NCBI GenBank assembly: GCA_025526915.1
Contig: JAHLKH010000082.1
Span: 1-64,000 of the forward strand
DNA: 64,000 bases
Direction of reading: 5' to 3'
Source of the DNA: Entophlyctis helioformis
Lineage: Eukaryota > Chytridiomycota > Chytridiomycetes > Chytridiales > Chytriomycetaceae
In this document: in pieces, positions 22,772 to 42,447 of the stretch
Layout: each line of letters begins with the position of its first letter
How positions within the stretch are numbered: the stretch's first letter is position 1
Notes under the pieces: generated by a model
Databases searched by the model: none
What the model saw: the letters and a program-made list of their open reading frames with translations, nothing else
Told to the model about the DNA's origin: nothing
Translations under genes and position numbers: made by a program

Positions 22772-23477
22772 GTGTTGTGATGGTGAGCGAGGCCGAATTT
22801 GGGAGCGTGTGCACAATAGCCACCGTGCCCACAGCGCCGCAGACAATGGCGGGCGGCAGGCAGGCGGCGGCACGCAGACCGGCAAGTTGATGGCACAGGC
22901 TGGCTGGCTGGCTGGCTGGCACACAGGCACACAGACACGCAGATGGATGGATGGTGGGCGGCAGCTGCTTACCTTGAGAGTGTCAACAGACAGCGTTTGG
23001 GCATCGGCCGCATCTGCGGCAGGTGTGGCGTTCACGACGGATGGTTCTGAATGGCCGACTGAGGCAGAGCACAGAGCAGGGGGCAGAGGAGGTGGCAGAT
23101 GCAGTGTCAGGCGATGGGCGGTGCATGCTGTGCAGAGCAAGCCAGGCACCCACTCATTATGAGGCTTGTAAGGCGGTGTTGGTTGTTGTAACGGATGAGG
23201 TTCTAGGTCGTTGGTTGTTGGAGAAACCACAAACGCGCGCTTGAAGTGAGGGGTGGGCAATAGGGCGAGGGAATGCCGGCAGTTGCCGGCAAAATGCCCG
23301 ACATCCAAACAATTACCAAGAATCATTGAATTAAATTGGACGCGAGAGGCGTCGAATGCAAGCAAGCACATCACACGAGGGAAGGTTCGAGTCAGCAACC
23401 AGCATGCGACGACAGGCGGGCGAGGCACATCCAACGAAGTGCTTACCTTATCGTTAGAAAAGTGACCCTATTGGTCG
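22772..23477. other. Intergenic stretch with possible 5' untranslated exon of the tropomodulin-like gene
   Basis: On the minus strand a good donor (CAAG|GTAAGC, near 22972) and a pyrimidine-rich acceptor (near 22897, in CAGCCAGCCAG) could join an upstream exon of about 100-300 nt to the exon carrying the start codon at 22771. No independent gene was recognised. The rest is the 3' flank of the Fanzor gene. Confidence 0.35.
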
Positions 23478-23495
23478 ATCGGGAGGTGCCCCGAT
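23478..23495 (-). other. Hairpin abutting the Fanzor stop codon
   Basis: A perfect 6-bp inverted repeat, ATCGGG/CCCGAT with a 6-nt loop, starts at the first base after the Fanzor stop codon. In TnpB and Fanzor systems the guide (omega) RNA usually derives from the 3' end and downstream flank of the nuclease gene, so this is the place to look. A 6-bp stem alone is weak evidence. Confidence 0.3.
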
Positions 23496-26400
23496 TCATA
23501 CTGTGCTGGAAGTCACAGCACGTGGAGTGGCATGTGTCTTGCTGGCTTGTGACCTGCGAACAGACCGTGTCCGTGGTGGAGGCGGCAGGACGATGGGCGG
23601 ATCGGGTGGTCTTGGAGGCCGCTGGTTGACAGGCAGCTCAGGTACTGGAAGCTGCTGGACGACAGGCTGACTGGCCTTTGTGTGCGTCAAGTAGAGCGGC
23701 CGCTCTCCATCGAGCAAATGCCCCAGTGCGACCATTCCGATGTTGGTGGCTCCAAGCACGTCTCGGTGGTAGACGGCCTTGCATGCTGTGCACTCGTAGC
23801 GTCGCAGGTTGGTGCGGTTCTTGTATGGGATGCGCTGCTTGCACTGCGGGCACATCTGGCTGGTCAGGTTCTCGTTGCAGCGGTAGATCTGTGTGTGTGT
23901 GTGTGTGTGTGCAGGATCGTGTGTCAGTTGGTGCACAGATGGATAGATGGATGGCATGGCATCAGACGCACATAGGCATATCCAGACGACCGCAGATGCC
24001 TGATGAGAAACTTCTCAAACACAGCGTGCCGACCACCCTCGCCAGTAAAGTCGATGCCCAATGCCCACACAACTGGGATGTCCTTCTCTGCCGACTTTTT
24101 TGGATCGAAGGGCAGGCCTTGAGACGCAGGAGATGCTCGCTTGCCAGTGGTTGATCCTGCCAGCTTCATGATGCCTTCAAGAGCATGTCCGCGAAAAGAC
24201 GTGCTGTTGCTGCGCATGGAAAAACGCTCGGCCTTGACCTTCTGTGGAATGCCATGCCATGCCACTCAATGCAATCAGCAGGCGATCAAGCAGCTTGGCG
24301 ATCATGCCGATATGCATTCAGAAGCAGAGAAAACATACCTTTGCATTCAGGAATGTCGAGCAGTACGCCAAGCAGCGAAGATCCCAAAACGCTCGCTCAC
24401 CTGCTGAGACTGTCGGATCGGCATGCTTTGCCATCTTGAAGGCAATCGCCTCATGGATGTCGGCTGCCTTGGCATATCGGCCATTGAACCTGGCACAAGA
24501 GACAGGCACTGTGAGTTGATCTGGTCAAGAGTGCACAGAGTCATTGCATACATACCATCGCAGAAGTTCGCACTCAGCTTGAAATAAGCCAGAGGAGAGC
24601 ACATAGTTGGACTCGTGCGTGTATGTCTCGTCCTCGACATTGACAAGCATGCTGGACGCGCCAAACAGGTACCGCTGGCCCCAGTCTAGACTGACAACGC
24701 GAACAGTCTCATAGCCCTTGTCGGCGAGCAGCTTGTTGGCATCAGCAACATCAGGTAGTCGCTGGGATGCATTGAAGTTGCGCTTGGCCTGTCATGCCAT
24801 GGCATGAGTGAGGGATGTGCAATGCATGTGCACCAATGCGCGAGGTTAGCATGCAAGTGACATACAAGGTTTGGCACTTTTGGCTTGGCAGCTGTGGATG
24901 GCATGTCAGTTGGTGTGGACAGCAAGTACGCGTCTGGATTGGCACAGCAACTCACATTCGCCATTGAGGTAATCAGGCACACAATCAGCCTCATTGGCAA
25001 GACTGGGAAGCTCGCATGAAGACGCCGTGTCGGGACCTGCGAAGCAAGGCGGCGGTTAGAATTGATGTGTGCACCAAAGCATCCAAGCACGGCACATACT
25101 GCAAGGCGACTCTGGACGGTCTGTGCGATAATCGCGAACCAGCTGGCCGACGCTGTATCCGTTCGAGATGACACTACTCATCCGTGTCCGTTTGGTTGGT
25201 CTCGCTGGGGGTAGAGCATCAACCGCAGCCTGGATGAAGTCCTTGCGCTCCTTGCCACGCAGACGCTGCTTCTTGGCCGCTCGCGTCGCCTTGGCTTTGG
25301 CCACTTTCTTGGCCTTGGTGTTGGCTGCCTCCATTTCCGCTTCGGCTTCTGCCGGCGTTTGATACCGGCCTTTCTTGGGGCGGAGGCCGGGAAGCAGGAC
25401 GTCCATGACGCAATTCTCGCGACTCGAGCTGAATGCCTTCTTGATCTCGCTGTCGGTTGACTTGAGTGTCAACTTTTTCGAGCCAGGCTCTTTGAGAAAG
25501 GTGGATTGTTAGTATCAAATCATAAAAAGATGGCACAAACAGGCAGTGCAACTTACTGATCGCAGCAAGTAGCTCCTTTCGCAGTGCTTGCAAAGCAGGA
25601 TCCTGCCCCTTGCTGTCGCGCTCCTTCTTTGTCCCCATCACAGACCAAAAGAGTGTCCTCTCTGTGATGAGAACGAAAGGGTCGCAGCTTGCTGGCTGCG
25701 GGCAAAGCTTGATGCTCTGTCTCCCAGCGAGATCGCGCAGCGCATGGAACTTGCCGGGATGCGACAGCGACTCACTGAGCACAATCGCAGCGAGCTCGTC
25801 TAGCTCTGGAGGTAGCACGACAACGGCCTTGCCCTCTGTGGCTGAGGAAGAGCTGGATGCTGCGGCCTTCTTACTGCGTGGCTTCTTTGGTGCGTCCTTG
25901 CCCTCCGTGGCTGGCGATGGGCTCGGCGCCACGCTCTCGGTGGTGGCAGCCTTCCTGACACATGGCTTCTTGGCGTCCTTGGCAGTGGCAGCCTTAGCGA
26001 CGCGTGGCTTCTTGGCGGCTTTGGCAGCAGCACCGTTGGCAGCCGTGGCGTCCTTGGCAGTGGTGTCCTTGCCGACGCGTACCTTCTTGGCTACGCCGCC
26101 CTTGTCGGTGATTGAAGTGCTGGACGCGGTCCGCTTGTGGGTTGGCACGGCGTCCTTGCCGACGCGTACCTTCTTGGCTACGCCGCCCTTGTCGGTGATT
26201 GAAGTGCTGGACGCGGTCCGCTTGTGGGTTGGCACGGCGTCCTCAGTGGCAGCCTTCCCAACGCGTGGCTTCTTGGTGGCTATGGCAGCAGCAAGCCTGG
26301 CGTCCCTGGTGGCTTTGGCAGCTGCATCCCTGACGGCTTTGGCAGCTGCACGCTCGGCGTCCTTGGCAGCTTTGGCAGCTGCGCGCTTGGCGTCCCTGAC

Positions 26401-28118
26401 GGCTTTGGCAGCTGCGCGCTTGGCGTCCCTGGCGGCGTTGGCAGCTACACGCTTGGGATCCTTGGCGTCTGCGGCGTCCTTGGCAGCTTTGGCAGCAGCG
26501 CGCTTGGCGGCGTTGGCAGCAGCACGCTTGGCGGTCTCAGCGTCCCTGGCTTTCTTGATCAGGTACGTAGTCCACGCCGTCGCTTGCTTGGGAGTTGAAC
26601 CGCGCACAAGCTTGAGGCACGCTGCAAACACCAGGTCGGACTGGCTTCCAATGTAGTGCTGCGCCAGCATGGCACACACACTCTTGGCGAGGTTGCTGAA
26701 GATATCATTCGCAGCTTCCGCGCAGAGGCTGCCGTCAAGCCTGTCTGGTAGAGCCGGCTCCTGCGCGACGGCTGGCGGCATTTTGGGCTGTGGTATGCCT
26801 TTCTTGATCGCATCGGCGTGCACCATGCCTCGCGTCCATGACCGGTGCATCATCAGCTGCATGGCCGTGACGAGCCACGCGTTGATCGTGCTCATATTGA
26901 GACCCGGCTGGGCCATCTGCTTGCCACTGAAAATGTACGACAGGTGGCGCAGCATACAGGCCATGGACGTCTCGCCGCCAGAAGCGCTGCTGATGATCTC
27001 TGTGAGCAGTTGGTTCGCTGTTGGCACCGCCGGTGCTGCTCCTGGCTGCTCAGACTCGTCGGCGTCCTCGGTGTCCTCAGACTCGTTGGCGTCCTTGATG
27101 TCCTCAATGTCCTCATACTCGTCGGCGTCCTCGCTGTCCTTTGACTTCTTGACCCTCTTGTGCAGACATATCTCGAGTCTCGTGCCTGTGGCGAGTGGCA
27201 CCGGATCGCCAAAGCGAGGATCGCTGCTCTCTGGGTTGTACAAACTTGAGCCATACATGATCTGCGCGTTGATGCCCTTTCTGAGCGTAAATCGGCCGGA
27301 CAGGAAATCCTCCCTTGACACGCCACCGGGGCGGTTGGTGCTGTCTGAGTTGCTGGGATCGTCGAGGGCTCTGATATCATCGCTGCTCAAGAAGCAGAAC
27401 CCGGTCTGCTTTTCTTGGAACCACTGGTAAACGTGGTATTTTGGCGGGAGGGGCGCGTCTTGAACGATCTCGAGGAGCTCTTCAAGGACGGCACCAATGA
27501 CGATAAGGCCGGCCTGCGAGTACCGACGGTGAACGAGTACACACGGGTAAACTTGTCCTCGACAATCAGATCCCGCGTCCATGTCTCTGGCGTCTTCCTG
27601 CCATGAAGGCCATGGAATCTGACGCGCAATGGATCACTCGAGGTAAGGTCCTGCAAACCACGCCAAGCTGCCAGTCAGTACATGCATCGCCATGCATGCA
27701 GGCAGAATGGCGATCCTAAATCGTACCTCGTATAGCACTCTAATGCCACAAAGATCAGCTGCGTGCACAGCGGGTCGATCGGTCGCGTCCACAGCGGGTA
27801 GATTGGTTGCGCCTCCTTTTGATTGCCGCACCTTGTCGCCGATGGCCGCAAGGAGTGTTATGAATCGCGCGGTAACGATCTGGCTCATCTTTCTGAGCTT
27901 CAGCTGTAGTGCCCGTCGTGAGCGAATGACGACTCTACCAAAACACGCATGTCAGCAAGTGCTCTCACAGCACATCGCACAGCATACATCACTTACACTC
28001 GCGTTGTGCCAGAAGGAAACCTGCGGTGCTGCAGGCTGACTTTGCTGTTGTCTTCGCGCTTCTTTGCCTCAGTATCTACAGCTTCCGTTTCGCTCTTCTT
28101 TTGAGCTTGGCGAGCAGC
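23496..28118 (-). CDS. Fanzor (eukaryotic TnpB/OrfB-like) RNA-guided nuclease, 5' end interrupted by Ty3 element
   Basis: Ten exons in consistent phase: 27997-28118, 27727-27934, 25557-27650, 25100-25489, 24956-25036, 24866-24891, 24556-24788, 24339-24489, 23972-24241, 23496-23888; about 1,320 residues. The C-terminal part carries a split RuvC nuclease: RuvC-I RVVSLDWGQRYLFG (Asp near 24684), the segment ALGIDFTGEGGRHAVFEKFL, RuvC-II CNENLTSQMCPQC with Glu at the alternative position typical of Fanzor (near 23871), a CxxC...CxxC zinc ribbon (CPQC, YECTAC), and RuvC-III HRDVLGATNI (Asp near 23761). The N-terminal 800 residues include an acidic stretch and a Lys/Ala-rich segment that could be nuclear-localising. 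One base appears missing near 27525. Many introns rule out bacterial contamination. The longer exon has no start at its 5' border; an internal MSQIVTARF (27840 region) could serve if the gene begins inside. Confidence 0.8.
26070..26243 (-). repeat. Exact 87-bp tandem duplication in the Fanzor gene
   Basis: Two 87-bp copies head to tail encode a 29-residue unit containing AVPTHKRTASSTSITDK and GGVAKKVRVGKD twice in frame. Flanking sequence (26250-26560) codes for degenerate AAKAAKDA/RDAKRAAAKA repeats. Multiple of three, so the frame is kept. Confidence 0.85.
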
Positions 28119-28120
28119 AC

Positions 28121-28369
28121 TGGGCCGCCAGACGGACTTGCCGGCTGGTTGCAGGGGCAGTGAGTATGCACGCGAGGAAGGGCGGGCAGACGACTTCATT
28201 GAGACATAAGCACGGACCTGGTTGCAGGGGCAGTGAGTATGCACGCGAGGAAGGGCGGGCAGACGACTGCAAGAACGGGGGCAACCAGAGCGGGGGACGC
28301 GGCCGGGCGATGTCTGTCCGGTCACGTGGGTCACGTGGATCACGTGACCGCGACCGAGCATCCGTTACA
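28121..28369 (-). repeat. 3' LTR of the Ty3 element
   Basis: 249 bp, identical to the other LTR except one base. It contains an internal direct repeat of about 47 bp (28147 and 28219 regions, GTTGCAGGGGCAGTGAGTAT...) and three CACGTG E-boxes at 28323, 28332 and 28341, spaced 9 bp. Confidence 0.95.
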
Positions 28370-28380
28370 CTCCCCCCAGC
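28370..28380 (-). other. Polypurine tract of the Ty3 element
   Basis: GGGGGGAG on the coding strand lies immediately upstream of the 3' LTR, the normal position for plus-strand DNA priming during reverse transcription. Confidence 0.75.
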
Positions 28381-28508
28381 GTAGACAGCCACTTATAAGA
28401 AAGAAGAGTGGATGAACAGCGACTAGGGGATGCAGGGGCATTGCGCACACGAGAGGCAGAAGTGCGGGCAACAATGGACGCGTAGGACACAGGACGGGGG
28501 CCGTGCGC

Positions 28509-31500
28509 TCAGAGCGACGAGGTGGGGCGGGATGGTTGAGAGGGGGAAGAGAAGAAAGAGAGAAGGAAGGAGGAGAAGAGGGAGGAGGGAGAGGAGGGAA
28601 AGATGGAGAGAGAGGGAGATGCGGGTGCAGCAGGTGCGATCGGCTCGTCAGCCGGAGCAGGTGCCGCGGGCGTGGCCGCGTATGGAGCAGAGGCCACTGG
28701 TGCAGGAGCAGGCGCAGTGCGCTTGCGGCGAGAGGACTTGGATGCCTTGGGCTGCGTGGGAGCAGGCGCCGCGGCGGGAGCAGGAGCAGCCGGTGCAGGA
28801 GCAGCCGGAGCAGGAGCCGCGCGCGTGGGCTGAGCCGGTTTGGACGCCTTGCCCTTAGGCGCCTTGGTCGGCCGAGCGTGGAACGCCTTGACGAGGTCCT
28901 GGGCCTTGCGCATGTCGGCGGCTGGGACCCATGTGTTGTCGTCGGCTGGATAGCCAACCCACTTGACCAGATACTCGATCTTGCCGCGATAAGTGCGCGA
29001 GTCGACGATCCGCTCGACCTCGTAGTTGTCCGACGTGCCGTCGTCGGCGTGGTACTCGGGGTCAGGCCGTGAGGGCACGTCCTTGCGGCCGGTAGGCGCA
29101 GACAGAGGGTCAACGTATGGGCAGATCCGGTCGGCATGGAACACGTTGTGGACGCGGTGCAGCGAGGCAGGCAGCGCGAGCGTGTAGTTGAGGCCAGATT
29201 CACCAGAGTCCAGGCTGGTGATGGCAAAAGGGCCGAGCCACTTGGCGGCCGTGAGCGGCGGGCGGTGCGAGTCCGCCGGCCAGGAGATGCCCTCAGCGTT
29301 GAGGAGCACCATGTCGCCGACCTTGTACGCAGGGTGACGGCGGCGACGCTTGTTTGCCTGAACAGCCATGGCTGCCTGGGCTTTGCGCCGATTCAAAATG
29401 GCTGAGTCGCGAGCAGCAGCCATGTCCAGCAGCAGGTCGCGGGCCGCGGCAGATGGTGCCAGGGCCGGCTCAGACGGGAAGGACCGCGGGTGGCGGCCAA
29501 ACGCCAGGAAGAAAGGAGCAAAGCCAGACGAAGCCGACGGCGCGCAGTTGAGGCCAAAGCAGGTGGGACCGAGCAGCAACGGCCAGTCAGAGCCGTGGTA
29601 GTCGGCCGCCTTGGCGAGCGCATCCTTGATGGTGCGGATGCTGCGTTCGGCCAGGCCGTCAGTCTGCTGGTGGCGAGCCGTGCTGAGGTTCTGCTTGATA
29701 CGGGCAGCGGTGCAGAGGCTCGACCAGAAAGCCGACAGCCAGCGGGCGTCACGGTCCGAGACGATGTCGACCGGGAAGCCCTTGCCCGAGCAGACCCAGC
29801 GAGTCAGGAAGAGCTCGGCCAGCTCCTGGGCCGACGACGAGCGGCGGCACGGGAACGCGTCGCAGAGACCGGACAGGCGATCGACCACAACCAGAGCAGC
29901 ATCAAACGCATCGTCTTGTCCGCCCGCAGGCAGGAACATGACGTCCATGGCGACGCTCGAGAAGCAGTCGTCCGGGATCGCGAGTGGATGCAGCAGGCCG
30001 TCAGGCCGGTGATTGGGCGTGCGGTGGCGCTGGCACACGTCGCATGAGGCAACATAGGCAGCAATGTCCTCAGACATTCTGGGCCAGAAGTACCGGTTCG
30101 ACAAGCGGCTGGTGGTCCGCTGACGTCCCTGGTGCGCACCGAAGGGAGAGTCGTGGTAGTGGGCGAGCAGATCCGCGCGCAGAGACTGCGGCACATACAA
30201 GCGGTTGCCTTTGTACCACCACGCACCATCCAAGCACTCCATGTGCACTACGACCTTGCGGTCGGCCGGCGTGGCTGACGACGGGTCAGCCTTCCAGCCA
30301 GGCAGTCTGGAGGCGAATGGGTCGGCCGGCAACGCCGCACGCACGTCTTTCGCCCAGTCAGAGTCAGTGCGCAGATTGGCAGCACGGATCGGGACAGGCG
30401 AGCGACAGTTTGTGCAGAGAGGGGCCTTTGAGGGATCGCGGGACAGCAGATCGGCCAGCGAGTTGAGCTCGCCAGGCACGTACTCAATGGATGTATCAAA
30501 CTCCTGCAGAGACAGGACCCATCGAGCCTGCCGATCCGACAGGTGGGGCTGCGTGGCCAACCAGACCAGCGCCTTGTGGTCAGTGTGCGTGACAGAGCGC
30601 ACACTGGACAGCAGATGACGGAAACGCGAGAAGAACTCCACGATGGCGAGCAACTCGCGTTCGTGGGTTGGATAGTTCATCTCGGCTGGGCTAAGCTTAC
30701 GTGACCAGCAGGCCACCAGCTTCTCGCCATCTGGGTGGATCTGCGACAGGTAGCCGGCAATGACGTAGTTGCTGGCATCAGTGTAGACATGCGTTTCCAG
30801 AGCCGGGTCAAAGAACCGCAGCTCGGTCGCTTTCAGCACTGCCTGTCGCAGGTCTTCCACAGCCTGCTTTTGAGCAGGGCCCCACTCCCACTTGGCATTC
30901 TTGGCCAGTAGCTTGTATAGTGGCAAGCACATGGTGGCGTACGCCTTTGCAGGGTTCGGCCCACCAATGAATGACTTTAGCCATACCAGCTTGCCAAGCC
31001 AAGTTGCCAGAGTGGTTGTGTTTGAGATGTGTGGCGCTGCTGCCATGTCCTGCAAGTGCTTTGGCGCAATGGAATAACCAGTGGGCGAAAGCACGTGACC
31101 GCAGAACTCAATGTCCTGCTGCAGGATCATGCACTTGGACGGCTTAATGTACAATTGAGCCTCCAGTAGCAGCTTGAGAACAGTGCGTAGGTGTTTGATA
31201 TGCTCCTTGTACGTCGCGCTGTAGATGTAGATGTCGTCCATGTACACCGAGACGCACGTGCCCAGCAGCTCATTGAGCGTCGACTGGATGGCCTGTGTAA
31301 ACACAGCCGGAGCATTGGTCAGCCCAAAAGGCATGACCGTGAACTCAAAGTGACCAAACTGGGTGGAGAACGCAGTTTTCCACTGGTCCTCCGCCTTAAC
31401 ACGGATGTTAAGGAAGCCCTCGCGGATGTCAAGCATCGAGCGGAAGGGTTTGTTTGCCAAGTTATCACGGAGGGTCTCAATCTCCGGGATCGCACTGTGG

Positions 31501-34286
31501 AACTTCACCGAGATGTTGTTCAAGCCGCGGTAGTCAATGACCAACCGCAGCGAACCATCCTTCTTGCGGACAAAGAGCGTGCCGGCGCCCAAAGGCGATG
31601 ACGAGCGGCGGATGTAACCTTTGGTGTACCACTCGTCCAGCTGCTTCTTGAGCGCTATGGATGCATCCTGATTCAGTCTCTTGAGGCCACGACGCGGCGG
31701 CAGCTGCGCATCCTTAATGAAAGGGATCGCAATCTCGAACTCCGAGTCGTGCGCACGGCCTTGCGGCGGGCAGCAGACCTCGTAGTAGTCGATGAATGCC
31801 TTCTGCGTCTCCTCGTCCGGGCAGACTGGAAGGTAGGGGTACTTCTCCTTCAGCTCGTCCGGGGTGAGGCCGTTTGCAGCCGCGACGCGAAGGCGCGCAT
31901 CGGCAGCTGCCTCACGGTCCTCAGGCAGGTCATCCACATAAACCAGCTCCGCGTACTCGTCCGGATGGGCGAGGATGTCCGACATGGTAACCACGATGTC
32001 AGAGTGCGGCCGGTGGTGGGGGACAGCAGACGGCAGAGCGTCCGCATGCTGCCAGATGTGGTGCACATCGGGGCGCGACTCGGTCGAGAAGCGGAAAACA
32101 CCGCGACGGAAGTTGAACGCCGCCTCCGCGGTGGTGCGCAGCCATGGCATGCCCAGGATGACATCATCCACACCATCGTAGACAAGGAACCGCACCTGGC
32201 TGACCGCAGCTGATCTGTCGGCCAGCGTGAGGTAGACCTCCGAATCTAGTCTCTGCAAGTTGCCGTTGGCAAACTCGAGAGTCACCGCCTGCCGGGTGAA
32301 CGGCCGGGCAGCGGCGAGCAGGCCATTGGCATCCAACCAATGGCGAGCCACTAGATTCGCGCTGCTGCCAGTGTCCACCAGGACGCTGGCGCTGCGATTG
32401 TCTAAGAAGACAGGGAAGGTGCACCGGTTCTCTGTGATGGGCTTCACAGGAGCCAGGTGCCCCTCCTTCAGTCGCGACGGCGGCAACACAGGACAAACAG
32501 GGTGATCAGGGGCCACAGAGGGCATCTTTTTATTCGCAACACCGCCCAAAGGGTCACTCTTCTTCGTCTGCGTCGCTGTACTGGGTCCCGTCGTCTGAGA
32601 ACGACGAGACGGTTTCGAGCGACCGCGAGCCGGAGCCATTGCTGGTGCGCCGTCGTCACGGGCAGGGACCAATGGAGGTTCGGTGTCAGCATTGGGCTTA
32701 CGCACGGCTGCAGGCTTAGCCGCCGAAGCGTGCTTGGCCGCAGGGGCAGGAGGAGCCAGAGGGGGCGAGCGAACATACCCGGGTGCCTTGGCCTTTGCCG
32801 CGATGCGCCCGACCTTAGAGTGGGGCGGGCGCTGGCTAGGCGATCGGCTGGCATGGTCGGCTGTCGCAGCGGGCGAGGCAGCCCTACGTGTCTCAGACGC
32901 GCTGTTGTTGCCAGAGGGCGCAGGGGTGGCAGCCTTGGGCGATGAGGAGCTCCAAGAACGCGGCGGCGTGGCAGCCGTCTTGCTCGGGCTGGGCTTCGAC
33001 TTGGGCTCGAGGGCCTTGGCGGCGGCTGCCTCAGCAGTGGCCAGCGCGGTTGACTGCTTGTGGTTGGCCTTCCGCGTGTGCAGGGCCATGAGGTAATCCC
33101 GGATGGCCGCGTACGAGGAGAACGTTTCCGAGGGCGTCGCCTTGAGGCGGCCCAGGATGAAGTCGATCTTGAGCTGCTCCGAGTGGCCGGCAACCTTGAA
33201 CAGCGCCTCCGCGCGGGGTACCCAGTCCTGGGGGGCCCAGCCGTGGCACGACAGCGGCGGGAAGTCAGAGGCAAGCTTGGCCTTGGCGCTGATCCGGGCC
33301 GAGTCCTGGTGCGTGTAAGTCGACCGGAGGTGCTCGAGGAACGTGTCGAATGTGAACGACAAGGCGTCGGCCTTGTTGTCGATGTACCAGGTGGTGACCT
33401 CCTGGAGCGCGGCTCCCTGGAAGGCATTCAGGAGCTGCCCAAAGATCCGCGGCATGGGAATCGAGGTGCATGACAGCGACTCGCAGGTGTTGCCATAAGC
33501 CATCTCGATGGCGAGGGCGAACGGCTTGAAAGCCGCGTGGGTGGCCGTCCAATCGACGTCCATCGAACCCTCAACCATCACAAAGCCCTGGAATGGCACA
33601 AGCTTGCTGCCCAGGTTGTCTGCAAACAGCTTGGCAGGGCTGCGGGCATCCACCGAGGATCCAGACGCGAGGGTCGGACGCGAGTCCACCGAGGACCCAA
33701 GCGCCTGGACCGAATGCGCAGTCTGCTGGGCGGCTGTGGCTGAGGCCTGCGCCAACGCGGCGTTTGCCGTTCTGGTGGCCTTGGCGACGGCATCTGAGAG
33801 GGCCTGCTCCAGTGCGATCACGGATTCCGACGTGTTGGCGACGCTCTTCTGCAAGCCCTGTATGGCCTCTGAGTTGGCCTCGACGGAGTCAAAGAGTGCC
33901 ACCATGCGTTGGTGGTGGAGCTGGATGGCATTGGAGTAGGCCTCGGCCTGCCTGGCGGCCATGTCGCGGTCCGACTGCAGCTGAAGCCGCAGATCGTTGA
34001 GGGCTGCGTGGGCAGCGGCCGCAGATGATGTGGTCGCCTTGAGTGCGCGGCCGGTGTCCAATGTCACCGTGCCAAGGCGTGCCAGCTCCGCAATCATGTA
34101 GTCATCGACTGTGGTGCCAGGCTGCTCAGGGCGGCTTGCGGCGCCCGGCTGGGCGGCCGGCGTGCTGGAGAGGAACGCCTCTTGGTGCCGACCGGAACCC
34201 GCATCGTGGCGGCCCAACAGGTCGGCCGAGGATTGGCGGCGCGCCGCTGAGGCGCTAAAAGACACGCCCAGAGCAGAGTCGGCCAT
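28509..34286 (-). CDS. Gag-Pol polyprotein of the Ty3 chromovirus, single frame
   Basis: An uninterrupted 1,925-residue frame starts at MADSALGVSF (34286); the frame is open into the LTR but this ATG is the first outside it. Order: Gag with a helical coiled-coil-like region (about 60-230) and a capsid-like segment (about 250-430); basic Ser/Pro-rich linker; aspartic protease LVDTGSSANL (about 639); reverse transcriptase VYMDDIYIYS (about 1015); RNase H VYTDASN (about 1166); integrase HHCC HYHDSPFGAHQ...CDVCQRH (about 1373), then the catalytic Asp/Asp/Glu with DGLAERSIRTIKD; chromodomain EYLVKWVGYPADDNTW (about 1755-1800); Pro/Ala-rich tail. No CCHC zinc knuckle was seen in Gag. No stop or shift separates Gag from Pol. 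Confidence 0.95.
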   Translation of the reverse strand: MADSALGVSFSASAARRQSSADLLGRHDAGSGRHQEAFLSSTPAAQPGAASRPEQPGTTVDDYMIAELARLGTVTLDTGRALKATTSSAAAAHAALNDLRLQLQSDRDMAARQAEAYSNAIQLHHQRMVALFDSVEANSEAIQGLQKSVANTSESVIALEQALSDAVAKATRTANAALAQASATAAQQTAHSVQALGSSVDSRPTLASGSSVDARSPAKLFADNLGSKLVPFQGFVMVEGSMDVDWTATHAAFKPFALAIEMAYGNTCESLSCTSIPMPRIFGQLLNAFQGAALQEVTTWYIDNKADALSFTFDTFLEHLRSTYTHQDSARISAKAKLASDFPPLSCHGWAPQDWVPRAEALFKVAGHSEQLKIDFILGRLKATPSETFSSYAAIRDYLMALHTRKANHKQSTALATAEAAAAKALEPKSKPSPSKTAATPPRSWSSSSPKAATPAPSGNNSASETRRAASPAATADHASRSPSQRPPHSKVGRIAAKAKAPGYVRSPPLAPPAPAAKHASAAKPAAVRKPNADTEPPLVPARDDGAPAMAPARGRSKPSRRSQTTGPSTATQTKKSDPLGGVANKKMPSVAPDHPVCPVLPPSRLKEGHLAPVKPITENRCTFPVFLDNRSASVLVDTGSSANLVARHWLDANGLLAAARPFTRQAVTLEFANGNLQRLDSEVYLTLADRSAAVSQVRFLVYDGVDDVILGMPWLRTTAEAAFNFRRGVFRFSTESRPDVHHIWQHADALPSAVPHHRPHSDIVVTMSDILAHPDEYAELVYVDDLPEDREAAADARLRVAAANGLTPDELKEKYPYLPVCPDEETQKAFIDYYEVCCPPQGRAHDSEFEIAIPFIKDAQLPPRRGLKRLNQDASIALKKQLDEWYTKGYIRRSSSPLGAGTLFVRKKDGSLRLVIDYRGLNNISVKFHSAIPEIETLRDNLANKPFRSMLDIREGFLNIRVKAEDQWKTAFSTQFGHFEFTVMPFGLTNAPAVFTQAIQSTLNELLGTCVSVYMDDIYIYSATYKEHIKHLRTVLKLLLEAQLYIKPSKCMILQQDIEFCGHVLSPTGYSIAPKHLQDMAAAPHISNTTTLATWLGKLVWLKSFIGGPNPAKAYATMCLPLYKLLAKNAKWEWGPAQKQAVEDLRQAVLKATELRFFDPALETHVYTDASNYVIAGYLSQIHPDGEKLVACWSRKLSPAEMNYPTHERELLAIVEFFSRFRHLLSSVRSVTHTDHKALVWLATQPHLSDRQARWVLSLQEFDTSIEYVPGELNSLADLLSRDPSKAPLCTNCRSPVPIRAANLRTDSDWAKDVRAALPADPFASRLPGWKADPSSATPADRKVVVHMECLDGAWWYKGNRLYVPQSLRADLLAHYHDSPFGAHQGRQRTTSRLSNRYFWPRMSEDIAAYVASCDVCQRHRTPNHRPDGLLHPLAIPDDCFSSVAMDVMFLPAGGQDDAFDAALVVVDRLSGLCDAFPCRRSSSAQELAELFLTRWVCSGKGFPVDIVSDRDARWLSAFWSSLCTAARIKQNLSTARHQQTDGLAERSIRTIKDALAKAADYHGSDWPLLLGPTCFGLNCAPSASSGFAPFFLAFGRHPRSFPSEPALAPSAAARDLLLDMAAARDSAILNRRKAQAAMAVQANKRRRRHPAYKVGDMVLLNAEGISWPADSHRPPLTAAKWLGPFAITSLDSGESGLNYTLALPASLHRVHNVFHADRICPYVDPLSAPTGRKDVPSRPDPEYHADDGTSDNYEVERIVDSRTYRGKIEYLVKWVGYPADDNTWVPAADMRKAQDLVKAFHARPTKAPKGKASKPAQPTRAAPAPAAPAPAAPAPAAAPAPTQPKASKSSRRKRTAPAPAPVASAPYAATPAAPAPADEPIAPAAPASPSLSIFPSSPSSLFSSFLLSFFSSPSQPSRPTSSL

Positions 34287-34549
34287 CAAGACAGACGACG
34301 TACCCGCAGGGTCGAGGCGGCGCTGGAACCTTAAGGGGGTGGCATCAATGAACGAGGGGGCCGTATCGAACGAGGCCTCGCCGAGGAGGTCCTGGTCGGT
34401 GCCCGAGGGGGCGGCGGCTGAGTGAGCCGAGGCCTGGGCGAATGCTCGACGGCCATCCGAAAAAAACGGAAAAATCGACGGAAAAATCGATCGACGGCGG
34501 CGGGGAACGGCGGCCGACGGCGTCGAAAGGGGGGTTCTTGCTGTAGTAC

Positions 34550-34798
34550 TGGGCCGCCAGACGGACTTGCCGGCTGGTTGCAGGGGCAGTGAGTATGCAC
34601 GCGAGGAAGGGCGGGCAGACGACTTCATTGAGACATAAGCACGGACCTGGTTGCAGGGGCAGTGAGTATGCACGCGAGGAAGGGCGGGCAGACGACTGCA
34701 AGAACGGGGGCAACCAGAGCGGGGGACGCGGCCGGGCGATGTCTGTCCGGTCACGTGGGTCACATGGATCACGTGACCGCGACCGAGCATCCGTTACA
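34550..34798 (-). repeat. 5' LTR of the Ty3 element
   Basis: 249 bp, matching the 3' LTR except at 34764, where the change turns the middle of the three CACGTG boxes into CACATG. Confidence 0.95.
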
Positions 34799-37681
34799 GC
34801 TGGCGTGAGAGGGCGTGGTGCCTGCAGAGGTTGGATGGCAACATGAGCAATGCATTCCGAGTGCACAAAATACATATGCAAGCATCAATGGTACATCAGA
34901 ACTAACCGTCGTCTGGGTGTCTGCAGCTCGATTGAGAGAAAAGACAACCCGCTGTGCTTGTCCAGGCCAACAGTTGGTAGATGACCATTTACGCTTGGGC
35001 GGCGTTGGCGGTTGAAGCCCCTGTCAATTGGAAAAATGAGCGACTGCACCAAGTCATCACATGCACACACGGCCAGTGTAGACAGAGACGCACCGATGCC
35101 TGCTCGATGATCGACTTTAGCAGAGCAATAGCCTCGGCTTGCTGCTCGACAAGTGTCACTGGTTGGCCCTTTGTTTGAGCTTTCAGGTCTTTCAGCTGTT
35201 TTATGGCCCTGTCGCGGATTTCGGCAAAGGTCTTTGAGGAAACGCGGCGGGTGTTGATCTTGCCTTGATACTTGGGTTTCTGCTTGTTTTTCTGCGTTTC
35301 TGGTACTAAAGTAGCACATTCGACAAAGGCAGCACTGTGAGTGGATGGTGTCAAGTCATTCTGATGCAAGCAGCACGTACTTGGAGTTGATGAATGCTCA
35401 AAGGGTACGCATGGAGGATACACGATCTTGTTCAGCTGGGTCTGCATCACCAAAGCGACAGTCTGTTCGATGGACAGTGGATTGGGTTAGACACTTCCAG
35501 GCGAGTAATGCACATGAGTCCAAGTCATGCAGAAACTTACGGTTGCATGCTGAATGGCCCAAGCTGGTTTGTTGAGCAACGTGCGCGCTTCCCGTACAGG
35601 AGGCTTCTTGCAGGCAAGCGCTACAAGTCGCGCGCTTGCCGCCCGGCTGATCCTCGCCAGAATGTCGCGGCCCGCGACTCCGCCATGATTGCCAGAGAGA
35701 CGGCCCGCCGCGTGCTTGACGATGCAGTCAAATGCAATCGGGCAGCCGTTGACCTGCTCAAACGCGGTGTCCATTTGCTCGCTGCTGACAATGGTCTCAA
35801 GGTGCCCGTCGATATCCTTCTGCGTCAGGTGCACGACGTTGGAGTCTGGGTGTCGTTCTTGCCAGTTGGAGTGGGTCAGGAGGCAGCCGTCATGTCGCTG
35901 GCAACTGCATCATGATCCAAAAGTTGCATCAAGGACAGGAGAACAGAGTCAGCAATGCGAGAACCTGCAGAGATCGCATGCATGAGTACCTTGGTTGAGC
36001 TGCGGCGGTCTTGACGGCAGCCTTGCCGCTGTCATTCCATGTGGCGATGGATGGTCAGTACAGTGCTCTGCATGCAAATGCATCAACAGTGCCGCGTGCT
36101 TGACCGATCGTGCAATGACTTGCCTCTGCCCTTGCGCATCGCGAGATTGACCGCTGCTTCCGCTTGGGGCTTTGAACGCCGCAGCGGAAGCTCCTGACTC
36201 GTCGAGGTAAACGAAAACGTCAAAGGCGTTGAGAAATGCCTTGGCGAGGTCCTCGCCTCCGATTGGCAACAAGTCCTTGACGTACGCGTCCCTGAGGCCC
36301 GTCAGGAAGTCGTCGGAAAACTTGCGGTTGCAGAGGCGATCACGGAAGCCGGCCAGATCCGTGTTTTCCTTGCTTATCACGCCATCAACGTACTCGTTAA
36401 TGAACTTGGCACCAAAACCAATGCCTGCAAGATGATGTGAGTGGCAATGCATGTTAGTCGGCATCGCAGCATGGATGACAATACAGAGCATGAAGCCAGG
36501 AATCGCACGCACCACGCCCGTAGCAATCGAAAAAGTCATTCTTGGCGAATGCAGCTAGAGTTCGGCAAGTGTCAGAGTTCCTGCTCGAGTGCAGCGAAGG
36601 CACAGGGAACTGCGGGTCTGCAACACAGACAGAGGGAGAGGAGCTGTCAGGCGACAGCGTCTGAGGCAGGCAAATGAATAGAACAGCAAGGGAAAGGCAG
36701 AGACGCGAGACATAGAGTTGGAAAAGCCAACAGACGATAATCTAACAGCAAGAGCCATCGAACTCGTACACTCCCATGGCTGACGCAGTGGACGGGATAC
36801 CTGCATGGTTATAAGACCGGATCTCGCTGTCATGTCCCTTGCGCATGCTCATCGTGATGACAGGGCAGCGGCCGTCGCAGTGCATCACCAAGTCCGAGTC
36901 GTTGGCGATAACCACCATTGGTGTGTCGCTGTTGCAAGATGAAGACTGTTAGCCGTCAATCAAAACATACAGTTGCGATGGCGGTCAATACCTTGGATTT
37001 CTTGCATACTCGGCTGCGCACCGGGCGATGCAAACGTCCGCCTCGTGGTCACACCAATGAGCCGTATGCTGTGGCTTGGTCTTGAGGATCTCTGCGATCG
37101 CCTCGTAAATACGCTGCTTGTCGTCGTGCGTGAGCATGAACGAACGTCGCAGCGCCTGTCTGTCTTTCCTGGATCATTGATGGTTAGTTAGAATCGCCTT
37201 GATGTGGCATGAAGAAGTGGACGCACCTGGTCAAGTGTTTCGATCTCTTGCACTTGCCGCGTTTGCGAATGCACCGCAGAACAGTGGCCACCCCATTCAG
37301 GACCTTAACGGCACGGTTCCTGTGCTCGATCTTAAGCCCAGAGTCGCCGTGCTGACCGTCAACATGAAAGACGTATGTGTGCTTGTCGCCGAACTTGCCA
37401 ATGAACGACTCGAGTACTGGCTCGAGGACTGACTTTCGTTCGGCCATGGATGGTTGTAGATCAGGCCTTCCTTGCCCGATAAAGTACGCAAAGAAGACGC
37501 TCATCACATCGACGTGGACGATGCCGCAAGTGCTGGGTGTGGTCGTGCTGGTGTCGCTCGGATCTCGTGGCGGTTGTGCATTGTCCAACACAAATGTCAA
37601 CGCCGAGGACCAAGGCACGTCCTTGTGTATGACGACGGCCTTTGCCTTCCTGGAATGTGCAGACTGGCCGATGATGCCCAT
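34799..37681 (-). CDS. XPG/FEN1-family nuclease, 3' end interrupted by the Ty3 element
   Basis: Eleven exons in consistent phase: 37227-37681, 36992-37168, 36801-36928, 36513-36617, 36124-36424, 35990-36028, 35541-35904, 35381-35462, 35094-35305, 34907-35020, 34799-34821; about 667 residues. It starts MGIIGQS, like the MGI(x)G start of Rad2/XPG nucleases. Family acidic residues are visible: IVHVDVMSVFF, YVFHVDGQHG (with K/R downstream), CDHEADVCIARC and VIANDSDLVMHC. A helix-hairpin-like DFFDCYGRGIGFGAKFINEY corresponds to the DNA-binding segment (FEN1 RGIGPKRA). The remaining 350 residues are unassigned, basic near the end (TPPKRKWSS). The intron at 36029-36123 uses a GC donor. No stop codon is met before the retrotransposon border, and the frame continues into the Fanzor exons when the element is skipped. 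The donor at 36800 has an alternative that would retain more sequence. Confidence 0.75.
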
Positions 37682-37719
37682 GTTGTGCGTGCGTGTGTGC
37701 GCAGTTGCTGATCGTGCGT

Positions 37720-37761
<42 letters not shown>

Positions 37762-37832
37762 AGTTGCTGATCGTGCGTGTGTGTGTGCTGATTGTGCGCG
37801 TGTGTGTGCGAGTGCGTGTGTGGTTGCTGAAA
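37682..37832. repeat. GT-rich microsatellite
   Basis: Several (GT)n and GTGTGC runs, the longest near 37731-37760, lie directly upstream of the XPG-like start codon. A 25-nt segment around CAGTTGCTGATCGTGCGTGT is repeated within it. Confidence 0.85.
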
Positions 37833-39125
37833 GCTCAATCAGACAGTTGCAGAGTGTCGCGGAAAGCTCGAAATCGCTTCTCCATTCCTTGCAGCGAGCA
37901 GCCCAAGAGTGGAACAATGGACAAGTAAAAAAGGGCTCCACGCCTCGTCCTCCATGAGCATGGCCGTGGATGGCAAGCTGGGCTCGGCACAAGGCATTTG
38001 TTCCCTTTGGCCGAGCACAATGATTGGACGCCACTGGTCGCCAAATTTAATATCATTTTCATTGTTCTCGGCCAGTCACTCTGAGCAGCGAACAGATGGC
38101 ATTGATGCGGATCGTCTCTGCTTTGAGGCTGGCTTACAGCCCATCTTGAAGGGTATGGCTTGATGGCCACTGGGCAGCATACCAAGGGCCATCCTGCTTG
38201 TGGCAGTCTTGACTGGTGACAGCCGGCATTCTTCTGCAGAGACAACCGCGTCACAGCAGACCTTGACGTCTTGGTTGATGCTGGAGTGCGATGGCGCGCA
38301 CAATGGCGCACGCGTCGGTAGAAGCGCCACCCCTCTTGAAACAGGCAGTGATCTAAGGGTTGGTGGCACCCAGAGCGCCACGCCCATTGTCAAGTTGAAG
38401 TGGCTTCTGAGAACATCAACCCAGATCGCCTCGATTCCACAATGCTCATAGGTTGAATCTGCAACCAAAGGCTTGCTTGATGCTCAACGGCGGTTGGATG
38501 CTGGCATGGCAGCCACAGCACTGGTTGCCCATCCAGCCTTGTTCATAGGGTCCATGCCGCAGTTGGAATCACCAAGTGCACATGGAATTGCTAGATCTCA
38601 TCCGTGTGAATTCCTCCAACCTGATGTCCAGCCCTCCTTTGTGCTCTGAGCAGTACTGAGATGCGCCATATCGCTATCTGGCTCTTTGGAACAGAGTTGC
38701 CAACCAACACCATGACAATCCTCCAATCTTTGACCAAGTAGTCATCCCAGATCTCACAAATGTGTCGCACTTTCTTGTGATGATGGTGCAAGGCGAGTTT
38801 CTCCTTGGGCACAGTGTCTTCATTGCCGACTTTGGATGCTGTTGACTTCAGTCGCCAGCAGGTCTGGGACGACTTGTTCTTTGCAGCCTGCAGTCGATCA
38901 GCCCTTTGTTGTTGACCGAGACTATGCATGCTGCTCGTCATTGCATTCGCGGGCATGCTGACAAGTCAGGTGGGCATGGCTGTTGGCTGTGGATGACGGG
39001 GTGCGACGGCATCGTGCCTTGAATGTAAGACTTGCTGATTATCTGCGCTGCTGGCTGTTGCAAAGACACTCGTCGCTGTGACCTTGCTGTCTACACAAAG
39101 GCAGCCAGGACAGAGGTTGACATGA
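37833..39125. other. Gene-poor stretch, possible relic fragments
   Basis: About 1.3 kb with no gene I can support. A minus-strand frame at 38591-38956 encodes 121 residues (KKVRHICEIWDDYLVKDWRI is a plausible protein stretch), and another at 38076-38468 begins MVADSTYEHCGIEAIWVDVL. Both are isolated, without joinable exons or a recognised domain, and may be remains of an older mobile element or gene. Confidence 0.35.
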
Positions 39126-39730
39126 GTGGGCAGAATTGCTGCAGGCATTCTGTGTGTATCGCCTCGACAGTTCTCAAAGTCAGACCAAGCCAAGCGCGAT
39201 GCCTTACAGCAGCTCAACGATACGCCGAGTGATCCATCCATGTCCTCGTTGGTGAGCCCGTCTGCCTCTTGTGCGATGGCTGTCAACAGTTGCGACTCTG
39301 TTGACACTGTGTGCCTTGACAATCTCGACGACGGCAAGGACCTTGCGGACGAGCATGGACAACCAACCGTTGCTGTGGCTGCCACGCCAACAGCCAGCCG
39401 CCAAAGAGCACAAGCAAGCGGAAGAGAGCAGCAGCAGCAGCTGGTGCCAGTGCGTCTGTGTCGGCTGTGACGTCGGTCGTTCGGACATTGCAGCAGGCAG
39501 CCCCAACAGCACCACAAGTGCGCCGACTGGAGGCAGAGGGACAGCAGCTGCAACAGGCAATGACAGGACAGTTCTTCGTGACACTACCAACACGCAACCA
39601 ACTGCTGCCCCTTGGACAGGCTCAGCAGACCACAAGCCAGCGTCAAAGCGACCACGACTTGAGAAGGCATCGCCTGCAGACCGCTCAGACCGCTCAGAAT
39701 CCGGACAAGAATATGAAATTGGATTCAAAA
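39126..39730 (+). CDS. Possible hypothetical coding segment, Ala/Gln-rich
   Basis: Not recognised and weakly supported. A frame from about 39126 encodes KSDQAKRDALQQLNDTPSDP and an acidic piece LDNLDDGKDLADEHG. Near 39400 the apparent coding frame shifts to one encoding VVRTLQQAAPTAPQVRRLEA, which then stays open into the channel gene. Either this is a separate small gene with one base missing, or an N-terminal extension of the channel. The AT-richer stretch at 39700-39860 looks like a promoter and favours a separate gene. Confidence 0.25.
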
Positions 39731-39880
39731 AGTTGGAAATTGGATGCCAAATTGAACAAAATTCGAGGCAAACCAGCCGGCCAATCAGGTGCCGGCGCAA
39801 GGTTTTCTATGGGAACGAAATCAATTACCCCCCCCCCACGCGCGCTTGAAAATCTCTGCCTGTCCGTCACAACACCCGCG

Positions 39881-42447
39881 ATGTTTGCGGCGAACAACAA
39901 GTTCAAGGGAGGCTTGGATGTAGAGCTCGTGTCTGCGGCGTTTGCCATTGCAAGTGCATGCCTTGCCCATGCTGCCCACTGCGCGCACGCGGCTGACTGC
40001 CAAGCCACGCCGCGACAGCCCGGCATTGCTGGCTCATCGTTCAGGGCATCAACAACAAGCCAGCTCGGTCGCCGGACTTCGTCTAAAAAGAGCCGCGCTG
40101 TGGGAGCATCAACAGCCAACACCATTGGCAGCGACGAGGGCGCCGGTGGCGGCAGCAATGCCGACTTTGCAAACAACAGTGCGGCTGCGCCGACTGCGGC
40201 TGCCATGGCGGCGGCATATGCTGCTGGTGCGTCGTCGCTCTCGTCGAGCGCGGCGTCGGGCCAGTCGCGTATCCGCAACGTCAAGCAGCCAACCGTGCAG
40301 TTTGAGGGTCTGTCGCCTCTGCCAGACGCCCAGCCGCCGCCGTTTGTGCCGACATCCGACCAAGACAACACGTCTGTTCCTGCCTCTCTCCACCAGGCTG
40401 TGTTCCCAACATCAATGCTGACATCCATGGCACGCTTCGCACTTGAACAACAACAGAGACTCGTACAACAAAGTCCGGCAGCTCATCTTCAATCAGGCCC
40501 TCAAATACGTACGTCAGTCTCGCCATGCATCCACCGGCATGACGCTCACCATCGCAACCACCTCGGCCAAACAGAATGTGACAAAGGCCGAGCAGAGCAC
40601 AGTCAACTTTAACGAGATTGCAGAGACGGACACGGGCGAGCTGCTCGAGACACACGTCAAGCAGGATCTCGCGTCCAACCTGGGCGAGGGCGACACGTTC
40701 CGTCTCGTCATGCTCGGCATGGTGTTCCTGGACGCCATATCGATCGCCATCCAGGCAAACTCCAAGCTCGTTCTCGCCGTCTCGGTGAGTCGCAGATGCG
40801 TCACGGGGGAGAGCTTGCATTCCAGCAGACGGAACTACCGCCAGGTGTGCAGTACTACTGGGGAGCGAACCTGTTCATGTACCTCAACCGCGTGTTTGTC
40901 GGCATCTTTGTCATGGAGATTCTGTTCAAATGGTACTATGGGTTCTCCAAGTTCTGGCGAAGCTGGTGGAACATTTTTGATGTGCTTATCGTCATTGTCC
41001 AGCTATCCGAACCAGGTGCATATCCTGCCTGTCTACTGTGCTTTGGACCTGTCATGTTACAGCCAATGCTGACACGAGAGCTGCATTGACTCGGGTCAAA
41101 GTGCATCTGGTGCTGGCTCATATCGGCATTCTGCGCGTGATTCGCATCTTTCGGCCATTCAAGTCCCATCGCACCATGCCGATCCTGTCTGGTGCTCAGA
41201 TTGTAATGCAAACCATTGCCGATTCGTCTGCTGGCAAGTTGTCTGGCGCCTGACATGGGACACGCATGGCTCATCTGGTGGCTGACCGCAAGTGTCCGCG
41301 GACAGATGTGGCCAACATCTGCGTGCTGCTCATCATGATCACGTACATCTGGTCTGTGATTGGCGTTACGCTCTTTGGGGTGGTCCAGCCAATCGATTTC
41401 GGGTCTATTGATCGGAGTATGCTCTGCCGTCTCTTGACTGTTGTTGTGATGATTGTCGACTGCACTCGCTGATCTTCTTTCCAACGTCAGCATTCTACAC
41501 GTTGTTTGTGACAGTCACCATGATTGGATGGATGGAGATATTTGAAGAGCTCGAGGTGGGGACACTCTGGCGATGCCGCCCCAATAGCATTGCCCTGACA
41601 CGGACGGACTGGCATTCAGAAAAAGGGATACTTTGTGGTCGCAGCCATCTACTTTTCGTCATACTTGGTCATTGCATCGCTCGTGTTCATGAAGATCGTC
41701 GTGGCTGTTGTCGTGGCCAACGTGGAGGAGGCGTACAAGCTCATGGAGATCCAGAAGCGTGCACAGAATCGCCGGTTGAAGACGACGCGGTCCAGCAAAA
41801 GCGGTGAGTGGCGCAAACCGACAGAGCGCGGCCGAGTGTGGCCAAGTAAGATCGAGTGTGGCTGACGCTGTGAATGCACATGCAGCGCTGTCAGGCAAGG
41901 AGGCGGCTGTGCGCCGTGCAGTCAACATGCCCCGTAGAGACCACGAAGTCTGGAAGACGCAGATCCCATACGAACTGCCTGTAAGCGCGTTCATGCAGGG
42001 ATGCCAGGCATGCGACAAGTGCGCGACAGAAACGTACTGACTGACTGACTGGACCGATGATGAACAGAATTTTGACAACCTGTCCAAGGAGCGGCTGGAA
42101 AAGTATCTGATTGTGCTGGCCATCATCGAGGACAGCATGGCCGAATACATGCGCATCAAGGAAGAGCTCAAGAAGATCCAGGTCGAAGTCAAGCAGCTCA
42201 ACCAGATGTCGCACGAGAGCCAAGAGGCTAATGAGGGTGACGAGCTGGACGAAATGGATGGAGAGGACCCAGTGAGTTGGCACTTTGCATGAGCTTGGTG
42301 CTCAAGAGTGCGGCTGACCTGCGGCTGACATGCGGCCGACATGCACGGTTCCAGCTAATCGACGATCGCCAGTTTGGTGGCGACGCACTGTCGCAGCTCA
42401 TGCGGTCGCGCAACAAGAACGATGCCCGCAAAGTGTCCATCAAGTAG
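39881..42447 (+). CDS. CatSper-like single-domain voltage-gated cation channel
   Basis: Six-helix channel subunit. After a low-complexity N-terminus (ATG at 39881), exon junctions are 40784/40829, 41015/41063, 41233/41306, 41416/41491, 41555/41622, 41803/41886, 41980/42068 and 42271/42355. S1: LVMLGMVFLDAISIA. S2: YLNRVFVGIFVMEILFKWYY. S3: NIFDVLIVIVQL. S4: RVIRIFRPFKSHR, five basic residues at every third position. S5: VLLIMITYIWSVIGVTLFG. Pore: FYTLFVTVTMIGWMEIF. S6: YLVIASLVFMKIVVAVVVAN. A coiled coil follows (EELKKIQVEVKQLNQM). CatSper filters read TxDxW; here the Asp is Ile. The intron at 41234-41305 has a GC donor. The frame changes near 40440, by an intron or an indel. A role in zoospore flagellar Ca2+ entry is inferred. 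Confidence 0.8.

Follow-up and report, generated by a model that had tools for sequence, protein, structure and literature searches.

Are the two nuclease-like coding chains that flank a retrotransposon in the chytrid Entophlyctis helioformis parts of one gene or of two? The window, which is the whole stretch of 64,000 nucleotides (nt) analysed here (positions 1 to 64,000 of contig JAHLKH010000082.1, C82 in our numbering), carries on its minus strand a gene-like chain that halts at one edge of the retrotransposon and continues from the other edge. A preliminary description proposed that the XPG-type chain on one side and the Fanzor chain on the other are a single gene split by the insertion. 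The window was compared with the assembly to which it belongs (29.57 Mb, 482 contigs). Paralogues free of the retrotransposon read through both chains in one frame, which bears the proposal out. Orthologues in related genomes had been suggested as the source of an empty site; the comparison was made on paralogues of the same genome instead, and the halves are continuous there. The two halves very probably form one gene in intact relatives, and it is quite probable that this is a single fused gene whose protein, some 2,000 residues long, is XPG/FEN-like in its front half and Fanzor/TnpB-like in its back half.

The insertion is a Ty3/gypsy retrotransposon with long terminal repeats (LTRs), located at about 28117-34798 on the minus strand, with reverse transcriptase, RNase H, an integrase zinc domain and a chromodomain. 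Its LTRs, at ~34548-34798 and ~28119-28369, are identical at 250 of 251 sites, and because they differ at only one of these the retrotransposon is young. No clear target duplication was seen when its flanks were compared. The retrotransposon is absent from the copies on contigs C15, C98 and C121 (loci L065, L066 and L067; 94-99% identical), in which the sequence is continuous across its site. Their alignment to the window covers the sequence to either side of the retrotransposon and leaves 2 nt between the two edges. The empty site reads GCCAGC-CATGCTCGCC in all three, where the window holds the 6.7-kb Ty3/gypsy sequence.

Exon 8 (34907..35020, minus strand as for all exons) forms the 5′ side of the junction. 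Exon 9 (27997..34821), which contains the junction, is split by the retrotransposon in the window and is 152 nt long in L065. Spliced and left unmended, L065 has a frame of 1,754 codons without a stop; it starts at the ATG of the XPG side and passes through exon 9 to exon 15, the RuvC-I exon, where a 1-nt loss breaks it. The phase of exons 8 and 9 is kept in six of six copies (L065-L070; L070 is the C103 copy) and also in L087, at about 44% identity. Intron 8 is in phase 0, with exons 8 and 9 in frame, in all seven copies examined. Relative to L065, the insertions and deletions in exons 8-9 of L068, L069, L070 and L087 are of 18, 9 and 3 nt, all multiples of three, and those in introns 7-9 of the same copies are all of 1 or 2 nt. 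The same junction recurs in retrotransposon-free copies and in diverged subfamilies, which goes beyond chance.

Comparison of subfamilies gives a ratio of nonsynonymous to synonymous substitution rates (dN/dS) of 0.45-0.61 over exons 1-10 and of 0.47-0.52 over exons 12-15, with lower values in exons 2, 3 and 6 (0.14-0.45). The ratio is 0.30-0.36 among L068-L070, and one pair of L065 with L066 or L067 gives 0 over exons 1-10. The two sides are also linked in the genome. A same-strand downstream Fanzor match accompanies 38 of 85 exon-1 matches among the matches listed, lying 5.8-7.3 kb away in 31 of the 38, and 13 of the 85 reach a contig end before any Fanzor match.

The front half begins with exon 1 (37227..37681), which supplies the ATG and the acidic motifs VDxxS and FHVDG. 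Exon 2 (36992..37168) carries HEADVCIA, and exon 3 (36513..36928), broken in the window by a 178-bp insert, carries NDSDL and NDxxDCYGRG. Alignments inspected by eye show VDxxS, FHVDG, EADVCIA, NDSDL and D-x6-RG conserved in this order between subfamilies; the first two acid motifs are present in all three sequences that contain exon 1, and EAD, DSD and D-x6-RG in four of four. The catalytic acids of XPG, FEN and EXO1 nucleases occur in the order D, D, ExD or EAD, DxD, and D near the GIG loop. We take the front-half series to match that of FEN/EXO1, with FHVDG standing in place of the VFDG of the FEN1/EXO1/XPG signatures and APxEAE missing. Below threshold, Pfam gives XPG_I_2 (E 0.13) and 5_3_exonuc_N (E 0.17) on the C15 chain, one of three sequences; both are 5′-nuclease families and lie at the matching position. 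An hhalign comparison restricted to the I-region of six sequences, a region chosen after the motifs had been seen, gives E 0.024 at a probability of 2%. It places DSD on DSD and NDF/NDY on SDY, with the D-x6-RG region aligned, and it beats 100 of 100 column shuffles. The front half probably has a true XPG/FEN nuclease fold. What supports the XPG-type label of the preliminary description is this order of motifs, together with a weak match of profiles.

The Fanzor label has held up, since PF07282 (Cas12f1-like TNB domain) matches the 3′ half of the gene with E 4.1e-11 and 43.3 bits against a cut-off of 26.3. NCBIfam guided_TnpB also matches the back half, with E 2e-6 and 27.4 bits, under its cut-off of 100. 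Exon 15 (24556..24788) contains a RuvC-I type aspartate in VVSLDWG. It is followed by exon 16 (24339..24489), exon 17 (23972..24241) and exon 18 (23496..23888); the last encodes the TS-QM-C4 zinc finger and RD, matches PF07282 and ends with the stop TGA. The Fanzor/TnpB motif has been defined as D-X(125,275)-[TS][TS]-XX-C4-X(5,50)-RD (PMC3627910, available part), and exons 15-18 of the window read D-X191-TS-QM-CPQC...CTAC-X5-RD. A phmmer search of the PDB with the last 348 residues matched no solved Fanzor or TnpB structure, the sole match up to E 1 being a ribosomal protein. By motif and profile, the back half is Fanzor/TnpB-like, with RNA-guided cleavage as a putative activity.

Several results weigh against the fused nuclease proposed here, and each has to be set beside an alternative that it would fit. 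The halves might be two adjacent genes in one element, co-transcribed or internally initiated, with a border that merely lacks stops. L065-L067 have an ATG right at the empty site (GCC ATG CTC), exon 9 of L087 has a second frame without stops, and the linker exons 8-9 have a dN/dS of 0.97-1.58, about 1 or above, with no visible selection on the linker. Also weighing against the fused nuclease, 34 of the 85 exon-1 matches have no Fanzor partner among the matches listed, with no contig end known nearby. The border ATG, however, is replaced by CAG TTG in L069 and by CAG GAG in L068 and L070, and it is absent in L087. Retrotransposon-free copies have neither a stop nor a conserved ATG at the XPG/Fanzor border, in agreement with the earlier remark that neither half has a clean end of its own. 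The conserved junction phase and the unconserved ATG weaken the two-gene explanation; the phase-0 intron, the indels in multiples of three and the 1,754 open codons of L065 also stand against it, and it is very unlikely. Another explanation is that this is a decayed repeat family in which the fusion is a relic, functional nowhere. None of the copies seen has an open frame all the way from ATG to stop, and each of L065-L070 has a frameshift: in exons 4 and 7 of L066, in exon 4 and later of L067, in exon 1 of L069 (2 nt), in exon 6 of both L068 and L070 (a break common to the two) and in exon 10 of L070; exon 7 of L087 has an extra base. The window copy is broken as well. Near-identical copies (L065 against L066 or L067) differ by very few changes, which give a dN/dS of 0.78-0.93, near 1. 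All eight public gene models found (P0001-P0008) are fragments of the fused gene, of 217-332 residues. Against decay everywhere stand the 94-99% likeness of the close copies, the constraint between subfamilies and the exact duplications flanking some copies, and the frame states come from a handful of fully read copies. A relic is somewhat unlikely.

The front half might alternatively be some other domain with look-alike acidic motifs. No Pfam family scores above its cut-off, the best being XPG_I_2, and PF00867 gives no signal in the window. Ribosomal protein L23 ranks first in both the PDB-profile and NCBIfam searches (E 0.041 and 0.11, respectively), with matches no weaker than those to XPG. 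These L23 matches cover residues ~72-174, outside the EAD-DSD stretch, and are taken as chance; PDB searches with either half returned nothing relevant. A four-sequence profile of the whole front half compared with XPG-I was out of register and at chance level, with the reversed control scoring higher, and the restricted comparison exceeded its best shuffle narrowly (18.61 vs 18.41). The AlphaFold2 model (four rows; P0001 and window exons 1-3) was unusable, at a predicted local distance difference score (pLDDT) of 37.5 and a predicted template modelling score (pTM) of 0.22. The look-alike explanation is opposed by the motif order, which is that of the FEN/EXO1 series, by the position and family of both sub-threshold Pfam matches, and by the in-register alignment of DSD and of NDF/NDY with SDY in the six-sequence comparison. 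We consider a look-alike domain unlikely, and an XPG/FEN-type nuclease remains our reading of the front half.

Judged from its sequence, the window copy is dead: it is a pseudogene that carries several lesions besides being split. The lesions are the 178-bp insert in exon 3, 1-nt losses in exons 9 and 11, and the retrotransposon. The insert (36570..36747, minus strand) has TG...CA ends and a 5-bp duplication, as in a solo LTR or a miniature inverted-repeat transposable element; insert and duplication are absent from the close paralogues L065-L067. Translated as it stands, the insert brings TGT TAG into the frame of exon 3. The preliminary description was right in placing a retrotransposon between the chains and mistaken in taking the XPG chain to be free of stops up to it. 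The exon 9 lesion lies just 3′ of the retrotransposon, where the window has CTCAAAAGAAG and the paralogues have CTCAAAAAGAAG, and the bases at the retrotransposon edge are also altered in the window relative to the paralogues. The junction is translated LTPA-MLAKLKKKSETEAV in the paralogues and LTPA-ARQAQKKSETEAV in the window. The chain does resume at the far edge, as had been noted; the exactly matching phase reported for it is partly luck, produced by the 1-nt loss and the altered edge bases. The 178-bp insert also occurs within exon 11 of L068 (4352-4609), and in L093 too, judged from its translation. The insert has its own acceptor-like TGTTGCAG and could pass for an intron.

The gene belongs to a larger unit. 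Protein searches of the same genome gave at least 234 exon-level matches to the XPG side (150 of 311 candidates scored) and at least 220 to the Fanzor side (150 of 459 scored). On this distribution the gene is cargo of a dispersed, high-copy mobile element and not a host gene, and copies of the element family number at least in the dozens within one chytrid genome. The whole element occupies 23248..39837 in the window, on the minus strand in the sense of the gene, and measures ~9.7 kb after subtraction of both later inserts. Its 3′ border is abrupt at 23247/23248, and the flanks beyond this border differ between copies. The 3′ terminal base is identical in 22 of 25 distinct elements (one with a nearby mismatch), the exceptions being C116, C168 and C12. 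The 5′ border of the window element is a G-run adjoining TAATTGATTTCG, and the G-run before TAATTGATTTCG starts most of the 16 retrieved 5′ ends. A 14-bp terminal inverted repeat (TIR), GAGGGGTGGGCAAT, is found inverted at both ends of the C169 element; in the other elements the 5′ TIR is mostly worn down to the G-run. The 14-mer has 78 exact matches in the genome, and its reversed pattern has none.

The window element is flanked by a target-site duplication, TTCAAGCGCGCGT, at 39838..39850 on the 5′ side and at 23233..23245 on the 3′ side, 2 nt outside the element end (both minus strand). Both ends are visible in seven elements (C121, C144, the window, C169, C15, C98 and C333). Their duplications are clear in four (9, 9, 13 and ~12 bp, the two copies of the ~12-bp one differing by 2 nt), partial in one and lacking in two. 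A fixed 9-bp duplication was dropped as a description of the family, since C169 and the window have longer ones. The loci L073 (C98) and L076 (C182) have an identical 5′ flank and are haplotigs or a segmental duplication. No relative was found among viral contigs. Outside the element, several hydrophobic exons on the minus strand at ~40400-42400 may belong to a neighbouring host gene, perhaps for a cation channel.

A 5′ module common to the subfamilies spans 38451..39837 (minus strand) and was delimited by identity, its abrupt edge, and counts of open reading frames (ORFs) and codon positions. Subfamilies with proteins ~45% different are ~96% identical in the stretch 38451-39190 of the module, and the identity ends abruptly at 38451, as if modules had been exchanged between subfamilies. 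ORF counts found no long conserved ORF in 38451..39837, where the ORFs were not run against Pfam, and a hidden transposase gene was rejected on this ground. Codon-position counts show an unevenness of shifting phase in parts of the module, and a spliced gene may exist there. The MULE transposase PF10551 had no candidate across the whole genome, other transposase families not being sought.

At the other end, the 3′ noncoding part (23248..23495, minus strand) is a candidate omega RNA scaffold in which bases near the end pair with bases just past the stop codon. Its fold has a z score of -2.62, with one of 200 dinucleotide shuffles equally stable, and an alifold consensus of 23 distinct 3′ ends has a z score of -4.7 against 60 column shuffles. 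In the consensus, one of 64 pairs covaries and 17 cells are incompatible; a point against the scaffold is that the outer helix, as read by eye, is for the most part lost in both L068 and L070. No Rfam match was obtained for the 3′ end. By analogy with SpuFz1 (PMC10432273, available part), it looks like a candidate guide-RNA scaffold that would use the flank as guide.

The remaining exons, with introns placed by conserved splice sites, are exon 4 (36124..36424, followed by a GC-AG intron), exon 5 (35990..36028), exon 6 (35541..35904), exon 7 (35094..35462), exon 10 (27727..27934), exon 11 (25557..27650), exon 12 (25100..25489), exon 13 (24956..25036) and exon 14 (24866..24891). An intron inside exon 7 was dropped; the read-through stays in frame, and L068 and L070 do not have its acceptor. 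The long exon 11, which has the second 1-nt loss of the window copy, contains Ala/Lys-rich repeats (window ~25560-26600) that vary between copies; across six copies the exon measures 1782-2248 nt. These repeats may have caused assembly breaks, as five contigs stop at a point 3.5-4 kb downstream of exon 1. In a comparison of L065, L069 and L070, introns 1-10 diverge between subfamilies by 0.135-0.198 at non-CpG sites, against 0.302-0.372 at exon wobble sites. As non-CpG intron sites still diverge less than wobble sites, CpG decay was rejected as the sole cause of the greater likeness of introns and explains part of it only.

A mechanism can be proposed for an intact element. The Fanzor half would load RNA from the element's own 3′ end, with flanking host sequence as the guide, and would then cut the element-free allele. 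The XPG/EXO1-like half would trim the 5′ strand or flap at the break, and this trimming would steer repair to copy the element back from the filled allele, as RNA-guided retention or homing. As for the copy in the window, it was destroyed by the 178-bp insert, small deletions and the young LTR retrotransposon. We offer the retention or homing role as a tentative suggestion, which may well not hold, though a joint role of the two halves would be simplest in this form. A bolder reading is doubtful: a selfish element that has no transposase of its own and spreads by RNA-guided homing, one polypeptide both cutting and resecting the empty site so that homologous repair would insert a copy. The role of Fanzor and TnpB in eukaryotic elements without a transposase is an open question on which this family bears, and a natural fusion of Fanzor with a 5′ nuclease of the repair type, carried by a high-copy family, directs attention to break processing and copy-back repair and offers a system in which these can be tested.

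We know of no earlier case in nature where an RNA-guided nuclease is fused to a 5′ flap nuclease or exonuclease, and to our knowledge FEN1/EXO1/XPG nucleases have not been part of an RNA-guided nuclease. In the full-text literature, supplements and subscription papers aside, no Fanzor or TnpB fused to an XPG-, PIN- or flap-type nuclease was found. A full-text query for TnpB with XPG returned PMC7286691 alone, judged irrelevant from its accessible part, and flap endonuclease with transposon-encoded and RNA-guided returned editing tools only, as far as the retrieved portions go. The available parts of PMC3627910, PMC10432273 and PMC10711439 mention no XPG-like fusion. In the protein database, the 1,754-residue C15 chain had no match at E 1e-3 among 8000 candidates. 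A front-half profile gave one match (8000 candidates) and the back half seven (1959 candidates), all from E. helioformis; among the loci compared, one public back-half protein best matches L070. Because the eight public models are fragments, Fanzor surveys based on gene models can, as this suggests, miss such proteins.

Compared with known systems, the front half resembles FEN1/EXO1/XPG 5′ nucleases in acidic motif order and by a weak profile match, and differs from them in lying under all family cut-offs. Fungal Fanzor elements with TIRs, 9-bp duplications and no transposase of their own have been reported (PMC3627910, here as below in its available part). The present family is like these in having Fanzor in a TIR element, 9-bp duplications and no recognised transposase of its own. 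It differs in its XPG-like half, none being mentioned in that part of the source, in duplications of 9-13 bp and in the lack of PF10551 in the genome. SpuFz1 of Spizellomyces punctatus (PMC10432273, likewise in part) is also a chytrid Fanzor with inverted repeats, no transposase found and a transposon-end RNA, for which the family has a candidate. The SpuFz1 locus, however, is ~2.1 kb with a single ORF and has no front nuclease half mentioned in the part available, whereas the element here is ~9.7 kb with 18 exons and such a half. In Mucor MCi-2 (PMC3627910), with duplications of 11-12 bp, a Fanzor-coding part is joined to differing other parts, as in E. helioformis. MCi-2, though, is without TIRs and has a variable 5′ part, whereas here the 5′ module is shared and it is the coding part that differs.

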